Positions 11,534 through 37,228 of a DNA stretch of 37,228 nt are shown here, piece after piece; position 1 is the stretch's first letter, and every line of letters begins with the position of its first letter. The DNA is taken from positions 1 through 37,228 of the forward strand of contig JAIEPK010000237.1 of NCBI GenBank assembly GCA_019749875.1, given 5' to 3'. Under the pieces are notes generated by a model. It saw only the letters and a program-made list of their open reading frames with translations. It did not search any database and was not told the DNA's origin. Made by a program: the position numbers and the translations under genes. The stretch is from Candidatus Binatia bacterium. Its GTDB lineage: Bacteria; Desulfobacterota; Binatia; UBA12015.

Positions 11534-12466
11534 ATGTCGAAGGAACGCGGATGGGCGGCCCTGGCGCTGGCGGCGATGGTCGCCGGCATCGCGCCGCCGG
11601 TGCATGCCGGCACCACGGCACGGACCTGCATCACGACCATCGATACGAACATCGGACAGGTCCGGGTGCTGCGCAAGATCGGCCCGAAGCAGCAATGTCC
11701 GGCCGGCGAAGAGCTCTACACCTGGGAGCGCACCGGCTTCGCCTGGCGCGATGCCTGGTCGCCGACCACGACGTACAAGCTCAACGACGCGGTGAGCCTC
11801 GGCGGCAGCAGCTACCTGAGCCTCGTCGACGGCAACCTGAACAACGACCCCGAGACGAGCCCTGCCGAATGGGCGATTCTCGCGCTCGAGGGCGCGGAAG
11901 GCCCGACCGGGCCGACCGGCGCGGACGGTGCGACCGGCGCCACGGGAGCGACCGGCGCGGACGGTGCGACCGGCGCCACGGGAGCGACCGGCGCCGACGG
12001 CGACGCAGGCGCGACCGGTGACACCGGCCCGACCGGTGCCACGGGTCCCACCGGAGCCACCGGGCCGACTGGGCACAGCGGGTTCATCGTCGTCGTCATC
12101 GTCGTCGCGTCCGACGATCCGATCATCGACGAGACCACGCGCTACCTGGCGATCGGGTCAGGCCGCCAGAGCGGCGACGCGGGTTGGGCCGGGACCCCGA
12201 TGCCCCTCGCCGGGACGATCGGCAATCTTCACGTCAGCACGTCGAAGGCGCCCGGCCAGGAAGTGGTTGCGACCGTCCACGTGAACGGTGAGGCGAGTCA
12301 GGTCACGTGCACAGTCTTTGGCGGTGACACGGCGTGCGAAGACGTCGACCATACTGCAAGCGTCGACGCGAATCAGAAGGTCACAATCATGATCCAGTCC
12401 GGCACACTGTCCGACCCCAACCCGTACGTCAGCGTGTCGTTCACGCTCACGGCCGAGGCGCCGTGA
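11534..12466 (+). CDS. Secreted collagen-like (Gly-X-Thr/Asp repeat) protein with possible carbohydrate-binding module
   Basis: A 310-residue exported protein. A signal peptide ([20 protein letters not shown], cut near HAG) is followed by a Cys-containing domain and a module around 75-118 (W at the start, [19 protein letters not shown], then PAEWAIL). That module resembles CBM5/12-like or ChiA-type surface modules. About 22 Gly-X-Y triplets ([16 protein letters not shown] and similar) span about 122-187. A beta-rich C-terminal domain of about 120 residues is predicted, as in Bacillus BclA-type proteins, where such heads trimerise. The Thr-rich triplets are typical of bacterial collagens, whose Thr residues can carry glycans. 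The start has a GGGAGG Shine-Dalgarno (11523-11528). Role unknown; a surface adhesin or filament is plausible. Confidence 0.82.
11921..11992. repeat. Perfect 36-bp tandem repeat inside the collagen-like gene
   Basis: Bases 11921-11956 and 11957-11992 are identical 36-mers, each coding for four Gly-X-Y triplets ([12 protein letters not shown] in register). Identity at the DNA level, not just in protein, points to recent slippage or unequal recombination. The triplet number is therefore likely to vary between strains. Confidence 0.9.
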
Positions 12467-13753: not shown

Positions 13754-14896
13754 TCACTGGATGCGCACCAAAGTGACGTTCTTGAGGGTCGCGCCGGTGT
13801 CGCGGAGCGACGCGTCGACCCGAACCGGGTAGCTGGCAAACTTGGCCGCGGTGGCCAGGGTGGAGGTGCTGCAGATCGTGCCGGGCGTGCAGGCTCCGTT
13901 GAGCTTGACGTAGGTCACGGTCGCCGTGCCATCGAGGTTGTCCCGGAGCTGAACGCGGAAGCGATCGCCCGCGCTGTAGAGCCCGAGCGACGTGCCCACC
14001 GGAGCGCCGTCCTCGAAGACCACGATCTTGCCATTGGACCCGAGGCGGATGCCGAAGGAGACGTCGGCCGAGCTCGGATCCACGTCCGTGCCGACGTCCG
14101 GCGACAGTCCGACGATGTGGCCCAGGTCGTTCTCGTTTGCTTCGAACTCGACCCAGGCGTCGCCGTGCGTGATGGTCTGCTTCGACGCCGCACCGGCGTC
14201 GAAGTCGGCGTTGCTCGCCGAGATCCGCGACAGGTCGTTCCCCGATGCCGACGTGCCGACGAGATCGGTCCACACGACCGGCTCCTGCGCGCGGCGCGGA
14301 TCGACGAAGTCCGGACGCAACGTTCCGCCGTTGCTGCACGCGTCGGCGTAGCAGCCGTTGGGATCGAAGTTGGTCGCGACGTGCGCGTTCGCGGCGCAGA
14401 ACGCCTGCGCGCCGCCCGGGGGCTCGGCGCCGCCGCTCGAGAGGAGGGAGACGCACATCGCGACGCACGCCGCGTTCCCGTCGGCGTACTTGCCGGGAAT
14501 CTGCTTCGCGCAGTTCAGACAGACCGCGTAGCCGTCCGGCCATGGACCCTGAAACTCGGTCTTCTTCGGAAGGCCGCCGCAGCTCGCCTCGGCCGCCGCC
14601 GACAGGTCGAGCACGATCGACGCCTGCTCGCCCTGCACGAGCGCGACGGCCGCGCGCGCCTGCGACATTCCGAGCCCGGTCTCCGTCGAGTCCGCACAGT
14701 CGTCGCTGCCCGCGATGGGGACCTTCGGGATGTCGCACATGATCGCGCTCGACTCCGGGACCGGGCCGGCGTCGAAGGCGTCGGGGTTGGCAATGCCGCC
14801 CACCTGCAGGGCGCAGTTGGGAAGCGCGAGCAGCAGCAGCGGCAGCAGCCAGCCGGCGCGCGCCCGCGGACCGATCGATTTCACGAAGCTACGCAT
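13754..14896 (-). CDS. Putative lipoprotein with Cys-rich middle and LamG-like C-terminal domain
   Basis: A 380-residue protein. The N-terminus MRSFVKSIGPRARAGWLLPL runs into LLLALPNC, so Cys28 follows a hydrophobic signal with a positively charged start, like a lipoprotein signal. However Asn stands at -1, where the rule expects Gly, Ala or Ser. A Cys-rich region (about 95-195) contains CLNCAKQ, CVAMCVS and CYADAC. The C-terminal 150 residues (from about DAWVEFEAN) have alternating beta character with FGIRLGSNGKIVVFEDG, like concanavalin/LamG-type sugar- or protein-binding domains. An AGGAGG Shine-Dalgarno precedes the ATG. The start lies inside the end of lgt (8-base overlap), suggesting coupled expression with the enzyme that would lipidate it. 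Confidence 0.72.
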   Translation of the reverse strand: MRSFVKSIGPRARAGWLLPLLLLALPNCALQVGGIANPDAFDAGPVPESSAIMCDIPKVPIAGSDDCADSTETGLGMSQARAAVALVQGEQASIVLDLSAAAEASCGGLPKKTEFQGPWPDGYAVCLNCAKQIPGKYADGNAACVAMCVSLLSSGGAEPPGGAQAFCAANAHVATNFDPNGCYADACSNGGTLRPDFVDPRRAQEPVVWTDLVGTSASGNDLSRISASNADFDAGAASKQTITHGDAWVEFEANENDLGHIVGLSPDVGTDVDPSSADVSFGIRLGSNGKIVVFEDGAPVGTSLGLYSAGDRFRVQLRDNLDGTATVTYVKLNGACTPGTICSTSTLATAAKFASYPVRVDASLRDTGATLKNVTLVRIQ

Positions 14897-15734
14897 GGAC
14901 ACATCCTCCTCGAGCGCTTGCGGCGCGTTGGGCGAGCGCGGCGGGCTTGCGCCGCAGCACGCAGAGCAGAGCGGTCGCGGCCACGACGGTCGCGATCGCG
15001 ATGAACTGAGAGGTCGACCAGGGGCCGATCGTGCCGCGATCCGGATCGGCGCGGACGATCTCGATGAGGTAGCGCAGCGCGCCGTACCCCAGCGCGAACG
15101 CGACCAGCGCCTGCCCCGGCACCTGCTGTCGCCGGCGCACGACGACGACGACCGACAGGAGCAGGACGCCCGCGAGCGACTCGTACAGCTGCGCGGGATG
15201 GACCGGCAGCGCGCTCGTCGCGTCCGCGGGCAGCAGTCCGAGCAGTCTCTGCTGGACGAAGGCGGGCGAGCCCGCGGGAAACCGGACCGCCCACGGCCCG
15301 TTCCACTCGCGACCGAAATCGCAGCCGCCGAGAAAGCACCCGATCCGGGTGAGGGACAGGCCGAGGCACAAGGACGGCGCGACGGAATCGGCCCACGCCA
15401 GCAAGGAGATGCCGTGGATCCGGCAGAAGGTCGCCGCGGCGGCGAGGCCACCGAGGAATCCCCCGTACGCAACGACACCGCCCTCCCAGCAGGCGAAGGC
15501 GCCGAGACCGGAATCGAAGCGATCGAGGTTGGTCGCGACGTAGAGGAGACGCGCACCGGCGATCGCCCCCGCGAGAGTCCAGGTCGCGCACCGATCGGCC
15601 AGGCGCCACTCGATCCCGGCGCGCTCGCCGAGGCGGATCGCGAGCATCCGGCCCACGATCACGGACACCGTCAGCAGCAGGCCGTAGGCGTGGAGCGGCA
15701 CGCCGAAGGGGAGCTGGAGCAAGACGGGCTTCAC
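14889..15734 (-). CDS. lgt: Prolipoprotein diacylglyceryl transferase (Lgt family)
   Basis: A 281-residue inner-membrane protein with about seven hydrophobic helices. Lgt moves diacylglycerol from phosphatidylglycerol to the lipobox Cys of prolipoproteins. Family features include HAYGLLL near 15-21, the ACWEGGVVAYGGFLGG loop near 81-96, the signature LTRIGCFLGGCDFGREW at 128-144 with Arg130, and ALRYLIEIVRADP in the C-terminal part. It has Tyr in place of the His of E. coli Lgt's HGG loop, and RIGCF instead of RIGNF, as in other divergent Lgts with a GCFxxGC(C/D)(Y/F)G signature. It is followed at once, with an 8-base overlap, by a candidate lipoprotein gene, so it may be a second, dedicated Lgt rather than the housekeeping copy. 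Confidence 0.88.
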   Translation of the reverse strand: MKPVLLQLPFGVPLHAYGLLLTVSVIVGRMLAIRLGERAGIEWRLADRCATWTLAGAIAGARLLYVATNLDRFDSGLGAFACWEGGVVAYGGFLGGLAAAATFCRIHGISLLAWADSVAPSLCLGLSLTRIGCFLGGCDFGREWNGPWAVRFPAGSPAFVQQRLLGLLPADATSALPVHPAQLYESLAGVLLLSVVVVVRRRQQVPGQALVAFALGYGALRYLIEIVRADPDRGTIGPWSTSQFIAIATVVAATALLCVLRRKPAALAQRAASARGGCVHA

Positions 15735-16200: not shown

Positions 16201-17133
16201 ATGGCCGACCTGCTGCGCGACGCGCGTACCACGCTCCTGCTGCGGGCGCTCGAGCTGCTCGGCAAACGACGACGGCGTGTCCTCGGCTGGCGCGCCCTCG
16301 CCGGTACCGGCGTGGCCGACATCACATTCGAGAGCCAAGGGCTCTCGTGGACCGCGTCGCCCGACGACGGGCCGGTCGGATTCGCTCTCTTCGTCGACGG
16401 CGCCTATCACGGCGCCGAGCTCGCGGCGCTGTGCTCGTGGATGGCGCACGGCGGTGTGGTGTCCGCGACGCGCGACGTCGTCGTCGACGTCGGTGCGCAC
16501 ATCGGCTCGACCTGCATCCCGCTCGCTCGCGCGACCGGCTGCCGGGTGCTCGCGATCGAGCCGGTCGCAGCGAGCTTTCGACGCTTGACGGCCAACGTCG
16601 CACAGAATGCTCTCGCCGAGCGCATCCGCCTTGCGCATGCCGCCGTCCGAAGACAGGGCGGGCGCGTCACGATGTCTCTCGTTCCCGGGGCCTCGGGGAG
16701 CAGCTTCGTGTCGGGCACCGAGCCCGGCCGGAGGGCACCGGACGCGTTGCAGGTCGAGGAGGTCGACGCGCGACCGCTCGGCGACCTGCTGGCCGCGGCG
16801 GGCTTCCGTCCCGAGGAGGTCGCCCTGGTGTGGGCGGACGTTCAAGGCTGCGAGGCGGAGGTCATCGCATCGGGCACGGCGCTCTGGGCGCGCGGGGTCC
16901 CGCTGTGGGCGGAGATCGAGCCGCGCTCGCTCCGGCAGCAGGGCGGCGTCGCGGAGTTCGTACGCCGCGCCGGCGAGCACTTCGACCGATTCATCGAGGC
17001 ACAGGACCTCGTCCGCCATGGCGCGGCCGCGCGCCCCGTGCCGATCGCTGCATTGACGGCGCTGATCGAGTCCATCGGCCCGGAGCTGAACCGCGATGCG
17101 CTGTTCCTGCCGCCGGGCCGCCAGCCGGGTTGA
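16201..17133 (+). CDS. FkbM-family SAM-dependent methyltransferase
   Basis: A 310-residue protein. The SAM-binding motif VVVDVGAHIGSTCIPLAR is followed by VLAIEPVAASFRRLTANV, the standard FkbM layout of glycine-rich loop and acidic residue ending strand 2. LVWADVQGCEAEVIASG matches the IKIDVEGxExxVL block, with Gln in place of Glu. FkbM enzymes O-methylate sugars or polyketides, often in surface glycan pathways. Here the gene stands alone but lies close to the saposin-like gene and the STT3/GT4 pair, so methylation of a glycan is a reasonable guess. No Shine-Dalgarno is evident before the ATG at 16201. Confidence 0.85.
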   Translation: MADLLRDARTTLLLRALELLGKRRRRVLGWRALAGTGVADITFESQGLSWTASPDDGPVGFALFVDGAYHGAELAALCSWMAHGGVVSATRDVVVDVGAHIGSTCIPLARATGCRVLAIEPVAASFRRLTANVAQNALAERIRLAHAAVRRQGGRVTMSLVPGASGSSFVSGTEPGRRAPDALQVEEVDARPLGDLLAAAGFRPEEVALVWADVQGCEAEVIASGTALWARGVPLWAEIEPRSLRQQGGVAEFVRRAGEHFDRFIEAQDLVRHGAAARPVPIAALTALIESIGPELNRDALFLPPGRQPG

Positions 17134-17272: not shown

Positions 17273-17836
17273 ATGAAGAACCTCAAGGCCATCGGCATCC
17301 TCGGCGTTCTCGCCGTCACCGCGCTCACGCTCGTCGGCACGGCGCCGGCGTCGGGCAACGGATCCTTCCTCATCACGGGCATGGTGAGCCGGCTGAAGCG
17401 TTTCTGCGCTCCGGGCGAGCTGCGCCCGGCCTGTCGGTATCTGGCGAACCTGGTCGTGCCGGCATCGCCGTTCCTCGACGAGCTGGTCGTCGGAAAAGAG
17501 CTCCCGCCGGACCAGGTCGAGCAGTTTCGCCGCATCGCCGTGGCGCGCATGGGACCGTTGGTGGCGCCCGAGCGCACCTGCGACGGCTGCAGACAGAAGG
17601 TCCACGACTTCGAGGAGCTGCTCGCGGCCAACGACACGATCGCGGACGTCGTCGACATGATGGACGATGCTTGCGCGGCGCGCTTCCGCAAGGACGGCGC
17701 ACTTGCGACCCAGTGCGCGACCGAGGTGAGACGGGTCGTCGCGCCGCTCGTCGACCTGGTGTTGCAGGAGTTGCCACCCAGCGCGGCGTGCTCGATCGGC
17801 GCACGCCGTCCGATGAACCTCTGCGCCAATCCGTAG
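17273..17836 (+). CDS. Exported saposin B-type-like protein
   Basis: A 187-residue protein with a signal peptide (MKNLKAIGILGVLAVTALTL, cut near APASG). The C-terminal 85 residues carry six cysteines: 103, 106, 134, 148, 173 and 184. This is the saposin B order, C-x2-C, ~27 residues, C, ~13, C, ~24, C, ~10, C, with amphipathic helical segments between (QKVHDFEELLAAND, TIADVVDMMDDAC, EVRRVVAPLVDLVLQ). In saposins these pair 1-6, 2-5 and 3-4 in a compact helical fold that binds lipids. Two further cysteines (45, 54) lie in an N-terminal helical part. The final PPSAACSIG...MNLC echoes the C-terminal cysteine pair of saposins. A lipid-binding or membrane-active role is inferred. Saposin folds are mainly known from eukaryotes. 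Confidence 0.75.
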   Translation: MKNLKAIGILGVLAVTALTLVGTAPASGNGSFLITGMVSRLKRFCAPGELRPACRYLANLVVPASPFLDELVVGKELPPDQVEQFRRIAVARMGPLVAPERTCDGCRQKVHDFEELLAANDTIADVVDMMDDACAARFRKDGALATQCATEVRRVVAPLVDLVLQELPPSAACSIGARRPMNLCANP

Positions 17837-17872: not shown

Positions 17873-20476
17873 TCATCGCTCGACGACGTCGGGCCAGCGG
17901 AGGCGCCACGTCGTCACGCGCTCGTCGCCGGCGACGCGCTCGTCGATCTTGATGAAGCGGCTCGCCCAGCGGCCGTCGAGGTAGAGCAGCTGGACCAGCG
18001 TCGAGCCGATCAAGGCCGGTGCGCCGACCAGCACGCGCCGGCGCTCGACGTCGACGAGAACGCCGAGTCCCGGGTGGGCGGGCGACTCCGGCGTCACGCG
18101 CTCGAGGCCGTCGCGACCTGCCACCAGCACCAGCCCGGGCGTTCCGGACAGACGTCGGCCGTCCTCTCCCGAGCGCGTCGTCAGCACGGCGTGCGCCGGT
18201 GTGTCCGCTGGATACTTGACATCGTCGAGGTACGTGCGACCGCCGCCGACCGAGGTGTCGATCGGGCACACGACCTCACCGGCACGCTCGTCGCAGGGGA
18301 TCCACGCGGCGACGAAGGGAACGCCCGAGGTCGCGTCGTCGCGCGCCGGCCGGCCGCTGGTCGCGCTCGACCGCGGGTCCCACGACGCCATCTCGACCAG
18401 CGCGCTGCGCTTGCGCAGCAGCGCCGACGACACGACGAGGTACGTCTCGGGCGGCGTGCAGTGCGTCGCCTGCAGCACCCGATCACGTACGTCGGGCGCG
18501 AGCCCACGCTCCTCCAGGTAGGCTCGTGCGCCGGCATGGTCGCGCACCACGACGTCGGCGACGATCGTGAACGCGTCCAGCGGATCGCGGCCCGAGCGCC
18601 GCAGGATCGCGTAGGCGCCCGCTTCGCCTTCCGGCAGCGGCAGCGCATCGGAGCCGCAGCTCAGCATGCGCAGGACGCCGGCGCTGTCGGCCTCGTTCGG
18701 GGCGAGCAGCGCGCGGCTGGTCCAGTACGGGAGGTGTGTCAGCAGCGAGCTGCCGTCGTTGGCGACGCGACGGTCGGCGACGTAGCTGATCCAGTGCCCG
18801 GTCTCCCACCAGCCGTGCACGATCGCATCGGGTGCGCTCGTGTCGCGCAGGTGCTCGAGCGCGTCCCACCAGGCATCGTCGATCAACGGCCGGTAGCGGC
18901 TCGCCAGGGTCAGGCCCGGGTCGAGCAGGCGGAGAGACGCGATCGCCAGCACGAGCGACAGGGCCGTCGTCGCGAGCGCACGATACCAGCGCGCTTCGGC
19001 GGCGATCGTCGCCCGGACCAAAGTGGTCGCGCGACCCACGAGCACGGCGCCGCCGAAGGCGATCGGTGGCACGGCGAACAGATAGAAGCGCAGTCCTTCT
19101 GACGCGGCGTAGATCGCTGCTCCGGACCAGACGACCAGGACGACTCCGTCATCACGCGCGCCGCGGTCGCGATCGTCGGCGCCGGTCATGCGGGTGAGCG
19201 TGGCCGCGACGAGCGGCACGCCGAGCACCATCGCCGCCGAGGCGAGGCGGCCGATGCCGGCCACGACGAGCCAGCCACCGCCGACGAGCGCCATCGCGAA
19301 CACCGACCGGTGCTGCGCCCGCCACGGACCCTGCGGCAGGAGCAGCAGCACGATGCCGAGCCATGCGCCGACCAGCACCCACGATCCACCGGCTTGCCGC
19401 GCGATCGCGGCGAGATCGAGCGGGGCGAGCTCGGCGACCATGGTGAGGCCACTGGGAAAGGCGAGCTCGGCGCCGGTCGCCGGCGACGACGCAGCGCGCG
19501 TGAAGAGCGTGGCCGCATGCTCGCGCGCGACACGGAGCAAGCCGCCGTCGGGCGTCAGGCTCGTCGCGACGCCGAGCGCGACCACGAACGTGACCAGCAC
19601 GAGCAGCGTGCGTCGCAGGTCGATCGCCGCCCGCCGGTCGCCGACGAGGCGGGATCGCACCACGTCGAGCAGCAGCACCGCGGCGAGCGCCGTCGTCACG
19701 ATCACCGGCACGAACGGCCAGCCGCGCCACGCCCATGCGTGCCCCCCGACGCAGCCGCCGGCAGCCATTGCCATGAGCGCCGCGTGCGCCGGGCGCCGCG
19801 CGTCGAGCGCCGCAAGGACGAGCCACAGGACGTAGAGCGGCAGCACGACGGTCCACACGTCGTTGTCGGCGCCGAGCGTGCGCGCGAGGACGCGTGCGTC
19901 GAGGGCCGTCAGCAGGACCGCGAAGGCTCCGGCGACGTCACCGCCGCCGAGGCGTCGACCCAGAAAGAACGCCGGTACGACGCCCGCGAGCGCGACCAGC
20001 AAGGTCGTTGCGCGCGCCGCGTCCGGCAACGGCAGGTCGCGACCCGTCCACCATCCGGCGACACGCGCCAGCGCGGCGATCGCCGTGACGTGCAGCGAGC
20101 GCGCATAGTACGTCGCAGCACCGAGCGGCGCTGCGGTGTGCTGGTCGCGACACGCGCCATCGACGACCGCGTCGCACGCATCGCCGGTACGGAGCAGCGT
20201 GCGTGCGTGGCGGAGCCAGAGGTAGCTGTCGAGGTCGCCGAGATAGACGTGCTCGCGCCCGTCGTCGCCGACGTGCGTCCATTCGGCGGCGTGCTCGCGG
20301 GCATCGGCGGCGAAGACGTCCGGCCGGGTCGGCAGGAGCCGTACCCACAGAACGAGCCCGAAGCAGGCCGCGAGCACCAGCGCCGTCGCGAGGCGGGCGC
20401 GAGCGCGGCGACGTCGGTCGTCGCGCGACGCCGCTGCAGCGCCCGTCACGGTGCCCGGTCCCCGTCGACGATGCAC
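17873..20476 (-). CDS. STT3-family oligosaccharyltransferase (PglB/AglB-like) membrane protein
   Basis: An 867-residue protein with about a dozen membrane helices up to residue ~515 and a periplasmic C-terminal domain, the STT3 design. STT3 enzymes move a lipid-linked glycan to Asn in N-x-S/T. Visible features are GDLDSYLWLRHARTL (81-95), like the first acidic loop motif; the DND of LGADNDVW at 204-206, like the second DxD; TMVAE at 345-349 (Glu349), like the S/TxxE motif of the EL5 loop; and WWETG at 556-560, in the position of the WWDxG acceptor motif. RFYLFAVPPIA lies in the late helices. The Glu in WWETG is unusual. The GTG start at 20476 is uncertain by several residues; an in-frame GTG follows at codon 10. 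The GT4 gene lies 114 bases upstream on the same strand. Confidence 0.85.
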   Translation of the reverse strand: MHRRRGPGTVTGAAAASRDDRRRRARARLATALVLAACFGLVLWVRLLPTRPDVFAADAREHAAEWTHVGDDGREHVYLGDLDSYLWLRHARTLLRTGDACDAVVDGACRDQHTAAPLGAATYYARSLHVTAIAALARVAGWWTGRDLPLPDAARATTLLVALAGVVPAFFLGRRLGGGDVAGAFAVLLTALDARVLARTLGADNDVWTVVLPLYVLWLVLAALDARRPAHAALMAMAAGGCVGGHAWAWRGWPFVPVIVTTALAAVLLLDVVRSRLVGDRRAAIDLRRTLLVLVTFVVALGVATSLTPDGGLLRVAREHAATLFTRAASSPATGAELAFPSGLTMVAELAPLDLAAIARQAGGSWVLVGAWLGIVLLLLPQGPWRAQHRSVFAMALVGGGWLVVAGIGRLASAAMVLGVPLVAATLTRMTGADDRDRGARDDGVVLVVWSGAAIYAASEGLRFYLFAVPPIAFGGAVLVGRATTLVRATIAAEARWYRALATTALSLVLAIASLRLLDPGLTLASRYRPLIDDAWWDALEHLRDTSAPDAIVHGWWETGHWISYVADRRVANDGSSLLTHLPYWTSRALLAPNEADSAGVLRMLSCGSDALPLPEGEAGAYAILRRSGRDPLDAFTIVADVVVRDHAGARAYLEERGLAPDVRDRVLQATHCTPPETYLVVSSALLRKRSALVEMASWDPRSSATSGRPARDDATSGVPFVAAWIPCDERAGEVVCPIDTSVGGGRTYLDDVKYPADTPAHAVLTTRSGEDGRRLSGTPGLVLVAGRDGLERVTPESPAHPGLGVLVDVERRRVLVGAPALIGSTLVQLLYLDGRWASRFIKIDERVAGDERVTTWRLRWPDVVER

Positions 20477-20590: not shown

Positions 20591-21724
20591 TCAGCGTCCG
20601 GCGACGAGCGTGCGCAGCTCGTCGACGAAGCGCGTGGTGGAGAACTCCTGCGCACGCACGGCGAGCGACGCGCGCAGCGCGTCCTGCGCCGCCGGGTCGC
20701 GATGCACGGCGAGCAGGCGCTGCGCCGCTTCTGCCGGGTCGCGAAACAGCAGGCGCGGGTCGTCGCCGACGATCTCCCGTGGGCCTGCCGAGGCGTGCAC
20801 GAACGGGATGCAGCCGGCGCGCAGCATCTCGGCGACCGCGATGCCGAAGGGCTCGTCGATCATCGCGTGCAGGCCGTAGCGCTGTGCCGCGACGAGATGC
20901 AGCAGCTCGTCGCGCGCGAGGTCGAGATGCAGGTGCACCCAGGCGGCGTGCTCGCGTACCAGCGCGCGGACCTCGTCGAGGTAGGCGCGATCGCCTTCGC
21001 TGCCGATCAGGTGCAGGTCCAGATCCGCGCCGCCGCGTCGGGCGAGATGAACGGCGTGCACCACGTCGGCGAGCCGTTTCTCCGGCGACAGCCGGCCGAT
21101 CGCGACCACGCCGTCGTTGCGCGCGTGCCACGGCACGGCGGGGAACTCGCCGGGCACGGGAGGGTAGAGCACGACCGGCTCGATTCCGTACAGCTCGCGC
21201 ACGCGAGCGGCGGTGTACGCCGAGTTCACCAGCGTGAGGTTGGCGCGCACGCCGGCGTCGGTGGTGCGGCCGAGCCGGCGCGTGAAGGCGCGGTACGCCG
21301 CGACCAGCGGCGCGCCGTGGTACCATTGGAGATCGACGTCGGGTCGCCCGGGATCGAGCTTCGGATAGTGGACGTACTGGATTCCGGGGCGTCCGAAGTC
21401 GGTCTCGTTGTCGGCGGTGAGCAGCAGGTCGTGACGGCCGGCGAGGCGCCGCGCGAGGCGCATGAGCAGCGCATGCTTCAGCAGTGCCGCGGGCAAGGGG
21501 CTCCAGGCGACGAGCCGGCGTACCGCCGCGGACGGCAAGACGAGCGTGAAGTCGCCGGGGACGAGCGACGTTCCGAAGTGGCGGTTGACGCTCGCCAGGT
21601 CGGGCGGCTCCCAGGCGAGCAGCGTCAAGCGGTGATCGCGGCGCAGCGCCTCGATCACCCACGCCGCGACCAGATGGCCGCCGCCCGGTGGGGCGAGCGA
21701 GGGCTGGACCACGAGGAGCCGCAC
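20591..21724 (-). CDS. Glycosyltransferase family 4 protein
   Basis: A 377-residue GT-B glycosyltransferase from the GTG at 21722-21724 (VRLLVVQPSLAPPGGGH), where the family's first strand begins. A GTG at 21784 would add 20 basic residues with no family likeness. The N-terminal PSLAPPGGGHLVAAWVIEAL loop and the VVAIGRLSPEKRLADVV and EPFGIAVAEMLRAGCIPF blocks are seen. The last contains the E-x7-E motif of retaining GT4 enzymes. The SLAPPGGGHLVAAW start resembles ALG11-like mannosyltransferases. Lying directly upstream of the STT3 gene on the same strand, it may extend the lipid-linked glycan that STT3 transfers. Donor and acceptor are not known. Confidence 0.88.
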   Translation of the reverse strand: MRLLVVQPSLAPPGGGHLVAAWVIEALRRDHRLTLLAWEPPDLASVNRHFGTSLVPGDFTLVLPSAAVRRLVAWSPLPAALLKHALLMRLARRLAGRHDLLLTADNETDFGRPGIQYVHYPKLDPGRPDVDLQWYHGAPLVAAYRAFTRRLGRTTDAGVRANLTLVNSAYTAARVRELYGIEPVVLYPPVPGEFPAVPWHARNDGVVAIGRLSPEKRLADVVHAVHLARRGGADLDLHLIGSEGDRAYLDEVRALVREHAAWVHLHLDLARDELLHLVAAQRYGLHAMIDEPFGIAVAEMLRAGCIPFVHASAGPREIVGDDPRLLFRDPAEAAQRLLAVHRDPAAQDALRASLAVRAQEFSTTRFVDELRTLVAGR

Positions 21725-22181
21725 CGGACGCTTGTTCCGTGCACGCCGTCCGGACGCAAGCACGCCGCGTCGCGCGCAGGCCACGGGTGACGAAGCGAGG
21801 GACGATCGTGCCAGGTTGGTGCGGCGACCGAGCGACGTCGCGGCCGCGTCGCCGCCACGACCGGCATGGCTGGCGGCAGCGTCCTCGCGTCGCCTGACCT
21901 GTGCGGAGCATGCCCGGTCGCCGACGTGGCGCGCGGCGGCATCGCTCGTCGCCCGAATTGCGCGCCGGCATCCTGCTTGCGACGGACTGCCAGACGTCGC
22001 CGATGCACGATTTGCCGTCAGAGCCCCGACCAGCCGCCTCGCGGCCGCGCTCGTTTCGCGCCGTGTTCCGTCTTCACCGCGACGCCGTCGCGACGACGCT
22101 CGACCGCCGCTGGGGCGTCATGGTGAGAGGCGATGTCGGGGAACGGCCGGACGTTTGCACCCCGCACGCGCCGAGCGAAGC
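21725..22181. other. 457-base divergent intergenic region between the GT4 and hydrolase genes
   Basis: No supported gene, repeat or RNA is seen. Short frames on both strands have Arg-rich translations typical of GC-rich non-coding frames. Promoters for both genes must lie here, but no clear -10/-35 pair is evident. Confidence 0.4.
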
Positions 22182-30503: not shown

Positions 30504-33500
30504 TCAGGGCGTCGGTGCGCCGCCCTTCGCCTTGAACAGATCCGCCTGGTTCTTGACGAAGGCGCTCGTTCGGTACTCGGCGGCGAAGCACGCGCCCCCG
30601 TCGATCGAGAGCTGCACCAGCACCGGCCCGGCGAACGGCAGCGCCGGCGGATCGAGCGGCAGGCCTTTCGCCCGCGCCACGATCTTCGCCTTGCCCGCGG
30701 CACCGGTCAGCAGCGTGATGCCGTCGATCCCGGTCGGCGTGAGCAGCTTGTCGGCGTACTTGAAGCCCTTGGCGCCGAGCGACTTCCAGCACGGCTTGCC
30801 GGCACACGTCCCGCCGGCGGGTGCGATGACGCCAGCGGCGAACGCTGCCGACGCGCCGTCGTAGACGCAGATGCGGACGTTGCTGCCGCTCGTCGGGTCG
30901 CCGAGATCGGCGAGCGTGGTCGCGTCGCCGGCGAGCCACTTCCAGCCGAGCAGATCGCCCTTGTCGTTGGCCTTGTCCTTGACGTCGAGCGTCGACTTGC
31001 CGTCCTCGACCGGTGCCTTGCAGCCGGTGAGCGGTACGTGCGGGCAGCCGTGCGACGAGCGGTCGCAGGCGTCGCCGGCACCGTCGTGGTCGACGTCCTC
31101 CTGCAGCGGGTTCGGTACATCGGGGCAGTCGTCGGAGTCGTCGGGGATGCCGTCGGCGTCGCCGTCGGCGACGCCCTTCGCGACCACCACCGGCTGCTCG
31201 TCGCAGGTCGATCCGGTGGGGCAGTCGTCGGCGTCGGCGCATGCGCCGGGATGGCTCAGCGTGCAGAGCAGCGTCGCCGGGCTGCAGTAGCTGCCGGTCG
31301 GGCAAGTGTCGGCGGTCGGGCTGCACGTCACGCCCGGTGCGAGGCTGCAGCGACCGCCCGGAGCGGTGAACACCGTGCTCTGCTGCGGTACGTCGAGCGG
31401 ATCGCTCGGGGTCGCGGGATCGATGCTGCCGACCACCGTCGAGATCTCGGTGCAGACGTCGAAGCTCTGCAGCACGAGGTCGCCGATCACGCCGTTGCCG
31501 TCGAGGTCCTGTCCCTGGTCGGTCTCGAGCGTCAAGTATTTCACGGTACCGCCGTCGACGCGGTACGGGCGGCGCGGGTCGCAGATCTCGAGCCGGCACG
31601 GGATCACCGCCTGGCCCACGTCGATCAGCGTCTTGCTCTCGATCTCGTAGACCTGCAGCACGCCGTCGTCGGTGTCGCCGTCGCCGTTGAGCGGGCCGTC
31701 GCCCTGTGCCGCCTCGCTGGTGCGGAACGCGAGCAGCTGGCGCGTGCCGCACGACGTGCCGGCCGCGTCGCCGAGCACCAGCTCCTCGGCCGCGACCTTC
31801 AGATTGCGCACGGCGAACTCGCCGTGTCCGTAGAGGTGCACGACGCGGTCCTGCGCGTCGCGGTCGCCGTTCAGGTCGGAGTTCTTCTGCGCCGCCTCGG
31901 GTACGAGGAACGCCACGCGCGATCCCGACGTCACGAACGCGTCCGCAGCGCGTGCGACATTCGTCCACGCGGACTCGCCGAGGCCCCGCACCTCGAGCAC
32001 GGCGTCGCTCGCGTCGCCGTCGCCGTCGAGATCGGTGCCGCCCTGCGCCGCCTCGGACGCGAGCGCGGCGACGATCGTCGGCGACAGCGCGACGGCGGTC
32101 GCGGCGAGGCCGAGGTTCTGCGACGGTCCGCCGGCGAGCGCGAGCTGCACGACCTGGTCCTTGGTGTCGGCGTCGCCGTTGAGCGATCCACCCGGGCACG
32201 CGGCCGTGCCCGTGCTCGACTCGGGACGCAGGTACGCCGCGTTGCCGGCCGCGACCGACACGTCGCCCGCGGGGCACAGCGTCGCGACGGCACCCGTCGC
32301 CGCGTCGATCGACTCGAGCACGGTGTCGTCGAGCACGCCGTCCGCGAACAGCAGCGCGTCGACGCCGAGCGGATCGGCCGGGTTCGCACGTACGACGAAC
32401 GCGTCGCTCGCGCCGTTGGTGTCGTTGCCCGCACCGAGCCGGTTGGTCGCCGACGACGAGAACGCGATCACGCGTCCGTCGGCGGAGATGCTCGGGTAGC
32501 TGGTGAACACCGCGTCGGGCGGCGACCCGTCCGCCGTGATCGACACCAGCTGCGTCGTGCCGGTGACGCGGTCGTGGACGTACGTGTTGAAGCCCGGCGT
32601 CGCGCCCGGCGCGAGGTTGGTCATGCTGCTGACGAAGACCACGAAGCGTCCGTCGCCGGACAGCGAGCGGTTCGACGGCACGCTGATCGTCCCGCCGGTG
32701 CCCTCGCTGCCGTCGCTCGCGACCGACACGCGCTCGACCGCGCCGGTCAGACGGTCGCGCACGAAGACGTCGTCGACGCCGTTGGTGTCTGCGCCGGGCG
32801 GCAGGATCGGGCTGCCGTAGCCGAAGGCGACGTAGCGGCCGTCGTCGCTGATGCCGGCCTCGAGCAGGTCGCCGAAGACGAACGTGCCGCCGAAGCCCGG
32901 GTCGAGGAACGCGAGCGGCTCGGTGACGCCGGTCGTGCGGTCGTGCCAGTACGTGACGGTACCGAAGGTCCCGGGCCAGAAGTTGCTCGACTCGCTCTCG
33001 AAGAGGACGACGTTGCCGTCGCCCGACATGTTGAGCTTGTAGCCGACCTCCTGTCCGGACTTGCCGTTGCCCTGCACGCCGCCCGTGCCGACGCTGACGC
33101 GCTCGGTCGTGCCCGCGACGCGATCGCGCACGAAGACGTCGGAGGTGCCGTTCGTGTCCTGACCGGGGGCGAGCAGGTCGGACGCCGCACTGATGAACGC
33201 GACGTAGCGGCCGTCGGCGGAGATCGCGACGTCCTCGTCGGAGACCGGCGCCGACTGTCCGCCGCCGAACGCGACGTTGATGCGCTCCGTGACGTGCGTC
33301 ACGGTGTCGTGCACGAAGACGTCGGCACCGCCGTTGGTGTCGACACCCGGACCGAGGAGGTTGGTCGCGACGCTCGCGAACGCGACGTAGCGGCCGTCGC
33401 CCGAGATCGCGGGCACCGGCGTGAAGCTGCCGTCGTCCGCCTCGCCGACGCCGCCGGTGGGAACGTTCACGCGGATCGTCTGTCCGCTCTCCAGGTCGTG

Positions 33501-35480
33501 GCGGAAGACGTCGTACACGCCGTTGCCGTCGCCGCCCGGTCCGAGCAGGTTGGTGGAATTGCTGGTGAACGCGAGGTAGCGGCCGTCGGCGGACAGCACG
33601 GTGACGGGCTCCGCACCGGACGCGGACTCGACGTTGCCGTCGCCGAGCGTGCCGCGCGCGATGCCGAGCGGCGCGTTGGCGCGCTCCGACGTGCGCACGA
33701 ACACGCGGCCGCCCGAGACCGCGAGCGGCTCGCCGTCGATGCGCGACGCGCCGTCGACCGCGCGCGGGCGCGCCAGCGCCGTCTCGCCGGTGCCGCGGCG
33801 GAACACGCGAACGAGGCCGTCGACGACGTCGGCGTCACCGTTCTCGTCGCAGAGGTTCTGCCCGGCCTCGCCTTCGAGGAACGCGACCACGTCGCCCTCG
33901 ACGGCGAGCGCCGGGAAGCGGAACGGCGGCCGGCTCACGCGCTGCACCGAGCGCCCCTCGGCGGCGCTCGCGAGGCCGCAGCCCGCGGTTCCGCCGAGCG
34001 GCTGCACGACGCCCGTCGCGCGATCGCGCAGCGTGACCACGGTGTCGGTGGTGTCGCCGTCGCCGTTGCGGTCGACGAGGTCGATCGACTCGCGGAAGGC
34101 GAACGTCCGCGTGCTCGCGCTCGCGACCAGCCCGTCGAGCGGCACCGGGCTCTGCGCCTCCATGGCGTACGCGACGCAGGCGTTTCCGACGCCGGTGCAC
34201 AGCGCCGGATTGCTGGTGCAGTCCTGGTGCGGTGCGAGCTGGCAGAAGAGCGGCAGCGAGCGCGTGACCACCAGCGGGCCGCCGCTCGCGACCAGCGGCG
34301 TCATGTCGAACAGCTCGCCGCACGGCCCGCTCGGACACTGGCCGTCGTTGCTGCACGGCACCGACGGGGCGTCCACGCACGAGGTCGCGCACGTGCCGTC
34401 CTTGCAGTCGAGGTCGCGCGCGCAACGCAGGCCGTCGCGCTCGCCGCCGCTGCACGTACCGTGGTGCCGCGCGATGCGGATCGTGGTGTAGGGCGCGTCG
34501 ACCGAGCCGAACACCGTCACCACGTCGGGATCCACCACCGTCGGATCGAGCTGCGGCTCGAGGATCGGCGGCAGCTCGCCGCCCTCGGGCGAGTACGAGT
34601 CGAGGAACACCTGATCCGGGATCACCAGCGGCAGCGGCGACTCGAGGCGCGTGCGGATGAGGCGCGGCACCGGCAGGCCCTGGTCGCGTGTCAGGACGCC
34701 CTGCCAGGCCATCGGCAGCAGCAGGTTGCCGTCGAGGTCGACCGCGGCGCGGACTTCCGTCGCCGTCGCGGTGCACGGCGGCGCGTCGGCGAAGCAGTCG
34801 CTCGCGAAGTCGTTCGGCAGCGGCAGCGCGGTGAAGTGCGAGAAGACGGCATGGCGCGCGGTCGTGCCGCAGGCGCCGTCGTTCGCGTACAGCTCGTCGA
34901 CGCACGCGAGGAGCCCGCTCTGCGCGCTGCACGCCTGCGTCGCGAGCTGGCAGGGCAACGGTGCCGCCTTCGGCGTGACCGCGATCGCCGTCGGGCCCGA
35001 CAGCGTGCGCCCGTCGCCCCCGGGTGCGAACTCGGCGTCGGTCGCGGGGAACGGGAAGCGCAGCCGGCGGTCGCCGAGGTCGACGTCGCTGAACGTCGCG
35101 AGCTGCGGCGTCGCGTGGCACACCGCCGAGGCGACGCCGGAGGTCGCGGCACAGCTCGCGGTGTCGACGCCGAGGCAGTCCGTCGCCAGCACGACCACGC
35201 GGCTCGTGCCGCCTGGTGCCTTGAACACGACGGTGACGACCTGGTCGTCGCCGGTCGCGAGGAATCCCGGCGAGGAGACGTCGCACGGACGGAGCCGCAT
35301 CTCGAGCAGCTCGCCCGGTGCGGCGAACGGACGGTTGGTCGCGCCGAGGATCGAGTCGTAGCTGCGCGCCGTGCCGGGGATCAGGTTGCACGCGGCGTCG
35401 GCGCGCGGTGCGGCCGAGAACGGCAGCATGCAGCCGAGGACGACGGAGAGCAGGGCGGCGCGGCGGATCGCAGGCGGCAT
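30504..35480 (-). CDS. Giant exported protein with PD40-like propeller, Ca-binding loops and TSP3-like repeat
   Basis: A 1658-residue exported protein; signal peptide MPPAIRRAALLSVVLGCMLP, cut near ADA|AC. A GAGG element precedes the ATG. The N-terminal ~340 residues are followed by a Cys-rich stretch (about 340-400, CSNDGQCPSGPCG) and a RNGDGDTTD calcium-type loop near 480. From about 625 to 1030 there are seven repeats of the type ISADGRYVAFASVATNLL with DVFVRDR ends, the PD40/TolB pattern; seven would close one propeller. Between about 1120 and 1340 come D-x-N-G-D-x-D loops (LNGDADTKD, DLDGDGDASD, PLNGDGDTDD) that probably bind calcium. A second Cys-rich part and a TSP3-like DGDADGIPDDSDDCPDVPNP lie near 1440-1475, before a C-terminal domain (about 1490-1658). 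Probably a cell-surface protein of unknown role. Confidence 0.88.
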   Translation of the reverse strand: MPPAIRRAALLSVVLGCMLPFSAAPRADAACNLIPGTARSYDSILGATNRPFAAPGELLEMRLRPCDVSSPGFLATGDDQVVTVVFKAPGGTSRVVVLATDCLGVDTASCAATSGVASAVCHATPQLATFSDVDLGDRRLRFPFPATDAEFAPGGDGRTLSGPTAIAVTPKAAPLPCQLATQACSAQSGLLACVDELYANDGACGTTARHAVFSHFTALPLPNDFASDCFADAPPCTATATEVRAAVDLDGNLLLPMAWQGVLTRDQGLPVPRLIRTRLESPLPLVIPDQVFLDSYSPEGGELPPILEPQLDPTVVDPDVVTVFGSVDAPYTTIRIARHHGTCSGGERDGLRCARDLDCKDGTCATSCVDAPSVPCSNDGQCPSGPCGELFDMTPLVASGGPLVVTRSLPLFCQLAPHQDCTSNPALCTGVGNACVAYAMEAQSPVPLDGLVASASTRTFAFRESIDLVDRNGDGDTTDTVVTLRDRATGVVQPLGGTAGCGLASAAEGRSVQRVSRPPFRFPALAVEGDVVAFLEGEAGQNLCDENGDADVVDGLVRVFRRGTGETALARPRAVDGASRIDGEPLAVSGGRVFVRTSERANAPLGIARGTLGDGNVESASGAEPVTVLSADGRYLAFTSNSTNLLGPGGDGNGVYDVFRHDLESGQTIRVNVPTGGVGEADDGSFTPVPAISGDGRYVAFASVATNLLGPGVDTNGGADVFVHDTVTHVTERINVAFGGGQSAPVSDEDVAISADGRYVAFISAASDLLAPGQDTNGTSDVFVRDRVAGTTERVSVGTGGVQGNGKSGQEVGYKLNMSGDGNVVLFESESSNFWPGTFGTVTYWHDRTTGVTEPLAFLDPGFGGTFVFGDLLEAGISDDGRYVAFGYGSPILPPGADTNGVDDVFVRDRLTGAVERVSVASDGSEGTGGTISVPSNRSLSGDGRFVVFVSSMTNLAPGATPGFNTYVHDRVTGTTQLVSITADGSPPDAVFTSYPSISADGRVIAFSSSATNRLGAGNDTNGASDAFVVRANPADPLGVDALLFADGVLDDTVLESIDAATGAVATLCPAGDVSVAAGNAAYLRPESSTGTAACPGGSLNGDADTKDQVVQLALAGGPSQNLGLAATAVALSPTIVAALASEAAQGGTDLDGDGDASDAVLEVRGLGESAWTNVARAADAFVTSGSRVAFLVPEAAQKNSDLNGDRDAQDRVVHLYGHGEFAVRNLKVAAEELVLGDAAGTSCGTRQLLAFRTSEAAQGDGPLNGDGDTDDGVLQVYEIESKTLIDVGQAVIPCRLEICDPRRPYRVDGGTVKYLTLETDQGQDLDGNGVIGDLVLQSFDVCTEISTVVGSIDPATPSDPLDVPQQSTVFTAPGGRCSLAPGVTCSPTADTCPTGSYCSPATLLCTLSHPGACADADDCPTGSTCDEQPVVVAKGVADGDADGIPDDSDDCPDVPNPLQEDVDHDGAGDACDRSSHGCPHVPLTGCKAPVEDGKSTLDVKDKANDKGDLLGWKWLAGDATTLADLGDPTSGSNVRICVYDGASAAFAAGVIAPAGGTCAGKPCWKSLGAKGFKYADKLLTPTGIDGITLLTGAAGKAKIVARAKGLPLDPPALPFAGPVLVQLSIDGGACFAAEYRTSAFVKNQADLFKAKGGAPTP

Positions 35481-35777
35481 GGCGAGACCTCACGGGACAC
35501 GGACGGTGCGCTACGGCGGCAGACCCTAGCGCCCGCGGCGCCGCGGAGCGAGTTTTTTTCTTGTCGAGTACGCCGAAAGACGGGTGTGCGGCGGACCGCG
35601 GCGGGGTGTGATGCGGATTGCTGATGGACTTGACGCGTGTCGCGAATGTCGCCCGCCGGGCGCCGCTCGGTCGGTCGTCGCGACGCCGCGCGTTCTCGCC
35701 TTGCTCCCGCTCGGGAAGCGCTGGCACAAAGGCCGTCGCTGCCCGCCGCGCGCGCGGCGCGGCGAGGACGTCCGCTG
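35481..35777. other. 297-base divergent intergenic region with palindrome and T7 tract
   Basis: It separates the minus-strand giant gene and plus-strand lnt. CCGCGGCGCCGCGG (35533-35546) is a perfect 14-base palindrome, and seven T's follow at 35553-35559. On the plus strand this resembles an intrinsic terminator; on the minus strand the A-tract would lie upstream of the giant gene. A TTGACG at 35630-35635 could be a -35 but lacks a matching -10. Confidence 0.45.
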
Positions 35778-37228
35778 GTGAAGGATCGAGTCGAACCGAG
35801 CCCGAGCACGCGCATCGTGCTGATGCTCGCGACGGTCGTGCTGTACGGCCTGTCGTACCCGCCGTACGGCTCGCCGCTGGTCGCGTGGCTCGCGCTGGTG
35901 CCGCTGTTCCTCGCGCTGCGCGGCCTGTCGGCGGGGCACGCGCTGCTCCTCGCCTGGGTGTCGGGGCTCGCGATGGCCTACGCGATCACCGACTTCCTGC
36001 CGGCGGCGGTGGCCTACTACTACGGGCAGGGGCTGTTCTTCGGCGTGCTGCTCTTCGTCGCCTCGGTGAGCGTCATGTGCTGCCTGTCGCACATGCTGTT
36101 CGCGCTTTGGTACCGCTGGCCGGGTGCGACGCGAAGCGTGACGGCGACCGGCGACGGCAGGGCGATCGCCGACGTCCCCGCGTGGCGCGCGGCGGGTGCG
36201 CCGTCGCCGCTCCTGGTCGGCGCGGCGTGGGTGGTCGCGGAGTTCATCCGCGGCGACCTCGAGGGCAACCCGTGGGGCACGATCGGCTACACCCAGGTGC
36301 GCTGGCTGCCGATGGTGCAGATCGCCGAGTGGACGGGCGTCTACGGCATCACCTTCGTGGTGGTCGCGATGAACGCGGCGCTCGCCGACGTGGTCGTGCA
36401 GCGCGCGCGGCCGCGCGCGCTCGGCCGCGTCGCGCTGGTGGCGATGCTCGCGCTGGCGGTGGTCACCTATGGGCGCGCTCGTCTCGCCGCCGTGGAGGCG
36501 GAGCCGCCGGGCGACGTGCCGATCGCGGTGGTGCAGGGCAACGTCGACCTCGGCGCGCGCTGGCGGCAGGAGCTGTACGGACAGAACCTCGAGGACTACC
36601 TGCGCCAGACCCGGGACGCGGCTCGCCACGAGCCGGCGCAGGTGGTCTTCTGGCCGGAGAACGCGGTCACGTTCTTCCTCGAGGACGAGGCGCTCTACCG
36701 CTACGCGATCGGGCACGTGCTCGCGCCGCTCGGTGCGCAGCTCGTCACCGGCGGTCCGCACGCCGAGCCGGGACCGCCGCAGCGCTTCTACAACTCGGCC
36801 TTCCTGCTCGGCCGCGACGGCGAGGTGATCGGGCGCTACGACAAGCGCGTCCTGATGCCGTTCGCCGAGTACTACCCCGGCTGGCTGGCGGTGCTGTCGC
36901 AGCGGCAGTTCGGCGGCGTGCGTGAGTTCAGCGAGGGACGTCCGTCACCGCCGCTGCCGACCGACGCCGGACCGGCGTCGGTGGTGACCTGCAACGAGGC
37001 GTTGTTTCCGCGCACGGTCCGCGAGCGCGTCGCCGACGGCGGCGGCTACCTGGTCAACCTCGCCAACGACGGCTGGCTCGGCGTGCACCGGTACTCGGAT
37101 CGCGTGCTCGACATGGTCGCCGTGCGCGCGATCGAGCACCGGCGCTTCGCGGTGCGCGCGTCGAGCTCGGGCGGCTCCGCGATCGTGGCGCCGTCGGGCC
37201 GCGTGCTCGCGCGATCGGCGCCGTTCGC
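35778..37228 (+). CDS. lnt: Apolipoprotein N-acyltransferase (Lnt), 3' truncated by window
   Basis: The frame is open from the GTG at 35778 to the window end (483 complete codons). Lnt adds a third acyl chain to the N-terminal Cys of lipoproteins. The N-terminal half has several hydrophobic helices (YGLSYPPYGSPLVAWLAL onward), and AEFIRG...NPWGTIGY matches the family's R-x-N-P-W region. The nitrilase-like periplasmic half carries the triad: Glu294 in WPENAV, Lys356 in RYDKRVLMPFAEYYPG, and Cys405 in VTCNEALFP. VNLANDGWLGVHRYSD follows, matching the NDAWFG block. Possible later starts are the GTG at 35817 or ATG at 35823; a GAGGA element before 35778 favours the longer one. The Cys motif is CNE where E. 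coli has CYE. Confidence 0.92.
   Translation, partial: MKDRVEPSPSTRIVLMLATVVLYGLSYPPYGSPLVAWLALVPLFLALRGLSAGHALLLAWVSGLAMAYAITDFLPAAVAYYYGQGLFFGVLLFVASVSVMCCLSHMLFALWYRWPGATRSVTATGDGRAIADVPAWRAAGAPSPLLVGAAWVVAEFIRGDLEGNPWGTIGYTQVRWLPMVQIAEWTGVYGITFVVVAMNAALADVVVQRARPRALGRVALVAMLALAVVTYGRARLAAVEAEPPGDVPIAVVQGNVDLGARWRQELYGQNLEDYLRQTRDAARHEPAQVVFWPENAVTFFLEDEALYRYAIGHVLAPLGAQLVTGGPHAEPGPPQRFYNSAFLLGRDGEVIGRYDKRVLMPFAEYYPGWLAVLSQRQFGGVREFSEGRPSPPLPTDAGPASVVTCNEALFPRTVRERVADGGGYLVNLANDGWLGVHRYSDRVLDMVAVRAIEHRRFAVRASSSGGSAIVAPSGRVLARSAPF

Follow-up and report, generated by a model that had tools for sequence, protein, structure and literature searches.

The gene and its surroundings

The window (the whole 37,228-nucleotide stretch analysed, contig JAIEPK010000237.1, with 71.4% GC) carries on its forward strand a gene for a saposin-like protein, placed between an FkbM-family methyltransferase gene and an STT3-family oligosaccharyltransferase gene (Table 1). 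The open reading frame is real. A longer frame in the same phase is open from 17096, and the ATG at 17273 is taken as the start because it yields a signal peptide and agrees with the start of the orthologue described below. A scan for promoters and terminators found none.

The first-pass annotation had read the product as a secreted protein with six cysteines in saposin order and two extra N-terminal cysteines. All three points are borne out: the positions of the six cysteines are exact, the extra pair is Cys45 and Cys54, and the signal peptide is plain by eye, with MKNLK followed by the hydrophobic stretch IGILGVLAVTALTLVG and TAPASG, as in a Sec-type signal. The N-terminal part of the mature protein has no Pfam match and contains helices at residues 29-44, 52-61 and 79-88 in the full-length AlphaFold model. 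We considered it as an internal duplicate of the saposin half and rejected this, since the likeness was equalled by 16 of 1000 shuffles for the window protein and by 749 of 1000 for the orthologue.

Further genes of the window are included in Table 1. Two lipoprotein maturation genes, Lgt and the apolipoprotein N-acyltransferase-like gene, lie within this same 37 kb contig.

Table 1. Positions of the saposin-like gene, its parts and other genes in the window, with the basis of each assignment
Feature	Position	Strand	Basis
Saposin-like secreted protein, 187 aa	17273..17836	+	ORF; ATG start, TAG stop
Putative signal peptide, about residues 1-27	17273..17353	+	cleavage site by eye; same plan in orthologue
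Helical N-terminal region (residues 28-96) containing Cys45 and Cys54	17354..17560	+	model helices; both cysteines kept in orthologue
Saposin-like domain, residues 97-187, with Cys103/106/134/148/173/184	17561..17833	+	profile against PDB; Cys-fixed shuffles; model helices
Second sequon N29-G-S, near mature N-terminus; absent from orthologue	17357..17365	+	sequence
Sequon N120-D-T	17630..17638	+	sequence and profile alignment
FkbM-family methyltransferase, 139 bp upstream, same strand	16201..17133	+	PF05050 1.6e-13; TIGR01444 7.6e-24
STT3-family oligosaccharyltransferase, tail-to-tail with saposin-like gene	17873..20476	-	PF02516 8.6e-13
GT4-type glycosyltransferase, upstream of STT3	20591..21784	-	PF00534 2.3e-12
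Secreted-looking protein with collagen-like repeat	11534..12466	+	PF01391 1.3e-7
Lgt	14889..15734	-	
1658-aa ORF	30504..35480	-	sole Pfam match at E<=0.001: PD40, WD40-like beta-propeller repeat
Apolipoprotein N-acyltransferase-like gene	35727..36900	+	PF20154

Relationship to saposins

A search of the PDB sequences with phmmer gave six matches at E<=10, all of them saposins (best E 0.016). With a profile made from the window protein and its orthologue, 13 chains were matched at E<=10 (best E 2.8e-4): 12 saposins and one aspartic protease from a plant, prophytepsin, which carries a saposin-like insert. All six cysteines of the profile align with those of saposin A. In a shuffle test the cysteines were held in place and all other residues were permuted, with 2000 shuffles per saposin. 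The window protein scored 74 against saposin A (shuffle mean 24.3, Z 11.3) and 79 against saposin C (shuffle mean 25.0, Z 11.3), and neither score was reached by any shuffle; the orthologue scored 54 and 47, each reached by one shuffle in 2000. The likeness of the window protein to saposins, as judged from these alignments, is thus well beyond the cysteines, and the saposin B-type identity first proposed is supported at the level of sequence. Taken by itself the cysteine order is not rare in this GC-rich window; a loose six-cysteine pattern also matches two segments outside the gene.

Scanning against Pfam, the check suggested with that proposal, gave a divided result. SapB_1 (PF05184) was matched by the window protein with E 0.0032 and 17.9 bits, under the gathering threshold of 25.2, and by the orthologue with 14.6 bits, while SapB_2 (PF03489) was unmatched at E<=1 in both. 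When whole genomes are searched, 8 of 395 genomes of the phylum contain a SapB_1 match at E<=0.02, so such a match alone is near noise. The score below the curated cut-off makes the window protein a divergent homologue and not a curated Pfam member; that its C-terminal half is a divergent saposin homologue is well supported by the alignments and shuffles.

Structure prediction was carried out with AlphaFold using the two-sequence alignment, and confidence was middling for the full length (pLDDT 60.4, pTM 0.47) and for the domain only (pLDDT 69.7, pTM 0.54). The domain model is helical in the expected order, with helices at domain residues 8-14, 17-23, 27-41, 46-70 and 73-79. VIA-align ranks human saposin A first when given the full model (Z 5.8, 3.9 Å over 66 aligned residues) and caenopore-5 first when given the domain model (Z 5.3, 3.9 Å over 67), and for both models unrelated designed helical proteins stand within 1 Z of the best row. 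For the domain model, saposin-like entries account for 8 of the 23 VIA-align rows and 5 of the 18 from Foldseek, including two rows of acyloxyacyl hydrolase, presumably saposin-like as well. Foldseek returned nothing at E<=0.001 for either model; its best row for the domain model is Ac-SLP-1 (E 3.3), and for the full-length model no saposin was found among the best 50 of 109 matches. The saposin matches among structures thus came only from the second look with VIA-align and from the domain-only model. Taken together, the predicted fold leans saposin. The amphipathic helices expected between the cysteines found little support: compared with shuffles, the hydrophobic moment is rare in just two of eight tested segments of the window protein (52-61, at 0.003 of shuffles, and 142-166, at 0.036) and in none of four segments of the orthologue.

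The missed Pfam cut-off, the low model confidence and the chance occurrence of the cysteine order in the window DNA would all suit a six-cysteine helical protein that came to resemble saposins by convergence, with unrelated ancestry and function. Set against them are PDB sequence matches that are all saposin-type, a window-protein score above every Cys-fixed shuffle and the share of saposin-like entries among the structural rows, and we consider convergence quite unlikely.

Saposin-like proteins (SAPLIPs) include pore formers. The top rank of caenopore-5 and the signal peptide, read by eye as a mark of secretion, would agree with a membrane-lytic protein directed at other microbes or eukaryotic predators, similar to NK-lysin or amoebapore. 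The charge points the other way: NK-lysin is cationic, whereas the saposin-like domain has a net charge of -4 and a pI of 4.8 (-4 and 4.7 in the orthologue). An acidic charge fits lipid-transfer saposins better than their cationic lytic relatives, and the value found here speaks for lipid handling over cationic lysis. The gene also lies in a glycan-assembly setting, and neither a secretion system nor an immunity gene was found among the scanned neighbours. A lytic role appears unlikely.

Compared with saposins A-D and the SAPLIP superfamily, the window protein has the same CxxC...C...C...C...C order, the same spacing in the first half and an acidic domain, and the model, of middling confidence, suggests the same helix order. 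It differs in being bacterial, in having one domain instead of a four-domain precursor, in the longer loops between the third and fourth and between the fifth and sixth cysteines, in its extra N-terminal helical part with two cysteines and in falling under Pfam's curated cut-off. No six-cysteine bacterial saposin was found in the literature searched, of which coverage was partial. Some bacterial SapB domains may already be annotated in databases. Bacterial saposin-like bacteriocins are described, in a review (PMC6072434), as helical proteins with a saposin-like arrangement that lack cysteines or disulfides and are saposin-like by fold; in contrast, the window protein has the six saposin cysteines and sequence homology to saposins.

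The orthologue and the STT3 neighbourhood

A single true orthologue was found, in a genome (G020) of the same class and a different family. The two proteins are 34% identical (E 6e-16), and the likeness runs over the full length, including the signal peptide and the N-terminal cysteines. By profile search a saposin-like gene is present in 2 of 148 genomes of the class and in one of seven genomes of the G020 family, and a same-genus genome (G001) is without it. A sample of 395 genomes of the phylum gave the window gene, its orthologue and a third match, which was rejected as a member with six stops inside. Two other candidates were likewise dropped: the match in G006 (E 0.0045 in the single-sequence search) was lost in the profile search, and that in G043 (E 0.043) lies on the strand opposite a gene that we take to be coaE-like. 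Searches of viral contigs, genome contigs, plasmids (tblastn) and PHROGs found no saposin-like members. As just two members are known, the word conserved refers here to one comparison.

The gene order FkbM(+), saposin(+), STT3(-) is common to the window and to the G020 contig, which is 1.86 Mb long. The saposin-like and STT3 reading frames converge and share no transcript, and their ends are 36 bp apart in the window and 39 bp in G020. The two STT3 proteins are 51% identical over 821 columns; the FkbM proteins are just 30% alike, and the further flanking genes differ between the loci. In G020 the locus is one of glycan assembly, with a PF00953 transferase, GT28, GT4, an ABC transporter, a methyltransferase, an epimerase and a weak GT2. 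These findings also bear on the origin of the DNA. Saposins are known mainly from eukaryotes, and a bin contaminated by eukaryotic DNA might be suspected; this is extremely improbable in view of the 71% GC, a GC3 of 0.89 that is like that of the neighbours, the single uninterrupted frame with bacterial genes on both sides, and an orthologue with the same neighbours on a long contig of an independent genome.

An STT3 of this type occurs in 15 of 148 genomes of the class. The saposin-like gene is lacking in 13 of these 15, so the saposin is not generally needed for STT3 function, and no saposin was found in the DNA stretches examined around other STT3 genes. An IQ-TREE phylogeny built from 23 STT3 rows joins the two saposin-linked proteins as sisters (100/100) although their hosts belong to different families. 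This pairing is consistent with the saposin and STT3 genes having been transferred, or selectively retained, as a unit.

Several features of the STT3 proteins themselves may be recorded. Relatives are present in Woesearchaeota (L029, L032 and L034) with 25-33% identity and E down to 1e-142. In the same 23-row tree, with a midpoint root for drawing only, these three archaeal rows group with the bacterial G064 and G108, and the grouping suggests exchange of STT3 genes between domains. Like the STT3/AglB/PglB enzymes, the window neighbour belongs to PF02516; in the profile, the WWD-GHW stretch aligns with archaeal AglB. The WWD motif of oligosaccharyltransferases contacts the Ser/Thr of the sequon. 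In the window copy, a putative oligosaccharyltransferase, residues 556-558 are WWE (WWETGHW), whereas WWD is present in the three remaining sequences of the alignment. The G020 STT3 (L005 8538-10796, minus strand) has 752 residues against 867 in the window and lacks segments, possibly membrane helices, in the region that spans roughly residues 367 to 437 of the window STT3.

The sequon and a proposed role

N120 lies 14 residues past Cys106. The orthologue has its sequon, N121GS in NGSVHM, likewise 14 residues past the second cysteine, and the sequons of saposin A (NAT) and saposin C (NKT) share both this offset and the alignment column. By shuffling, the chance of a sequon at this offset is 0.0019 and 0.0036 for the two bacterial proteins, which are not independent trials because the proteins are homologous. 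What is new is that, according to the alignment, a bacterial sequon stands at the same place as in vertebrate saposins A and C. For human saposin B, loss of the N-glycosylation site is a disease variant according to one report (PMC10315378), and that site may be the counterpart of the bacterial sequon. An N-X-S/T in an exported protein, as expected of an STT3 N-glycosylation substrate, is found here, with export judged from the signal peptide by eye. The conserved STT3 synteny and the conserved sequon both lend support to the earlier idea that the protein is secreted or glycosylated and binds lipid.

The site may also be constrained as a helix junction, or kept as a helix cap. The Asn would then end helix 1 and the Ser/Thr would start helix 2, a possibility that we hold tentatively. 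We give similarly limited credence to the wider account built on it, in which the protein binds lipid without being an STT3 substrate and lies near STT3 as a passenger of a glycan island. T-x-x-D/E after Asn is a helix-capping box; it occurs in the window protein, in saposin A and in saposin C, and the convergent orientation of the saposin-like gene and STT3 and the low likeness of the FkbM neighbours fit a passenger as well. However, the NGSVHM of the orthologue has no capping acid and still keeps N-X-S, and the STT3 adjacency is preserved in two families despite different further flanks.

Our leading reading, for which we see about an even chance, is that of a secreted, disulfide-locked lipid-binding saposin that is probably a substrate of the neighbouring STT3; lipid binding and glycosylation are both inferred. 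The protein would be exported by Sec and then oxidized, and three expected disulfides (103-184, 106-173 and 134-148) would lock the C-terminal helical, lipid- or membrane-binding domain, preceded by the N-terminal helical part with its own Cys45 and Cys54. The adjacent STT3 would glycosylate N120 in the loop that joins helix 1 to helix 2, and opening of the helical bundle would allow lipid to be bound. Closed and open forms are described for saposin C in one report (PMC3226326). The product would most likely be a lipid-binding glycoprotein of the periplasm or surface, working in the same cell-envelope glycan locus as a substrate, a lipid chaperone or a bystander. By analogy with animal saposins, which present glycolipids to enzymes, it could be imagined as N-glycosylated by the adjacent STT3 at the vertebrate-saposin loop and as a periplasmic chaperone for the glycolipids or lipid-linked glycans of the locus, although we regard this extended proposal as rather unlikely.

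If the leading reading is true, true saposins would be extended to bacteria, with the saposin cysteines, the sequence, the sequon and an adjacent oligosaccharyltransferase, and the protein would provide a simple system for the mutual effects of a glycan and a lipid-binding domain. It would also bear on the origin of saposins, which may have spread by transfer or may be older than eukaryotes.
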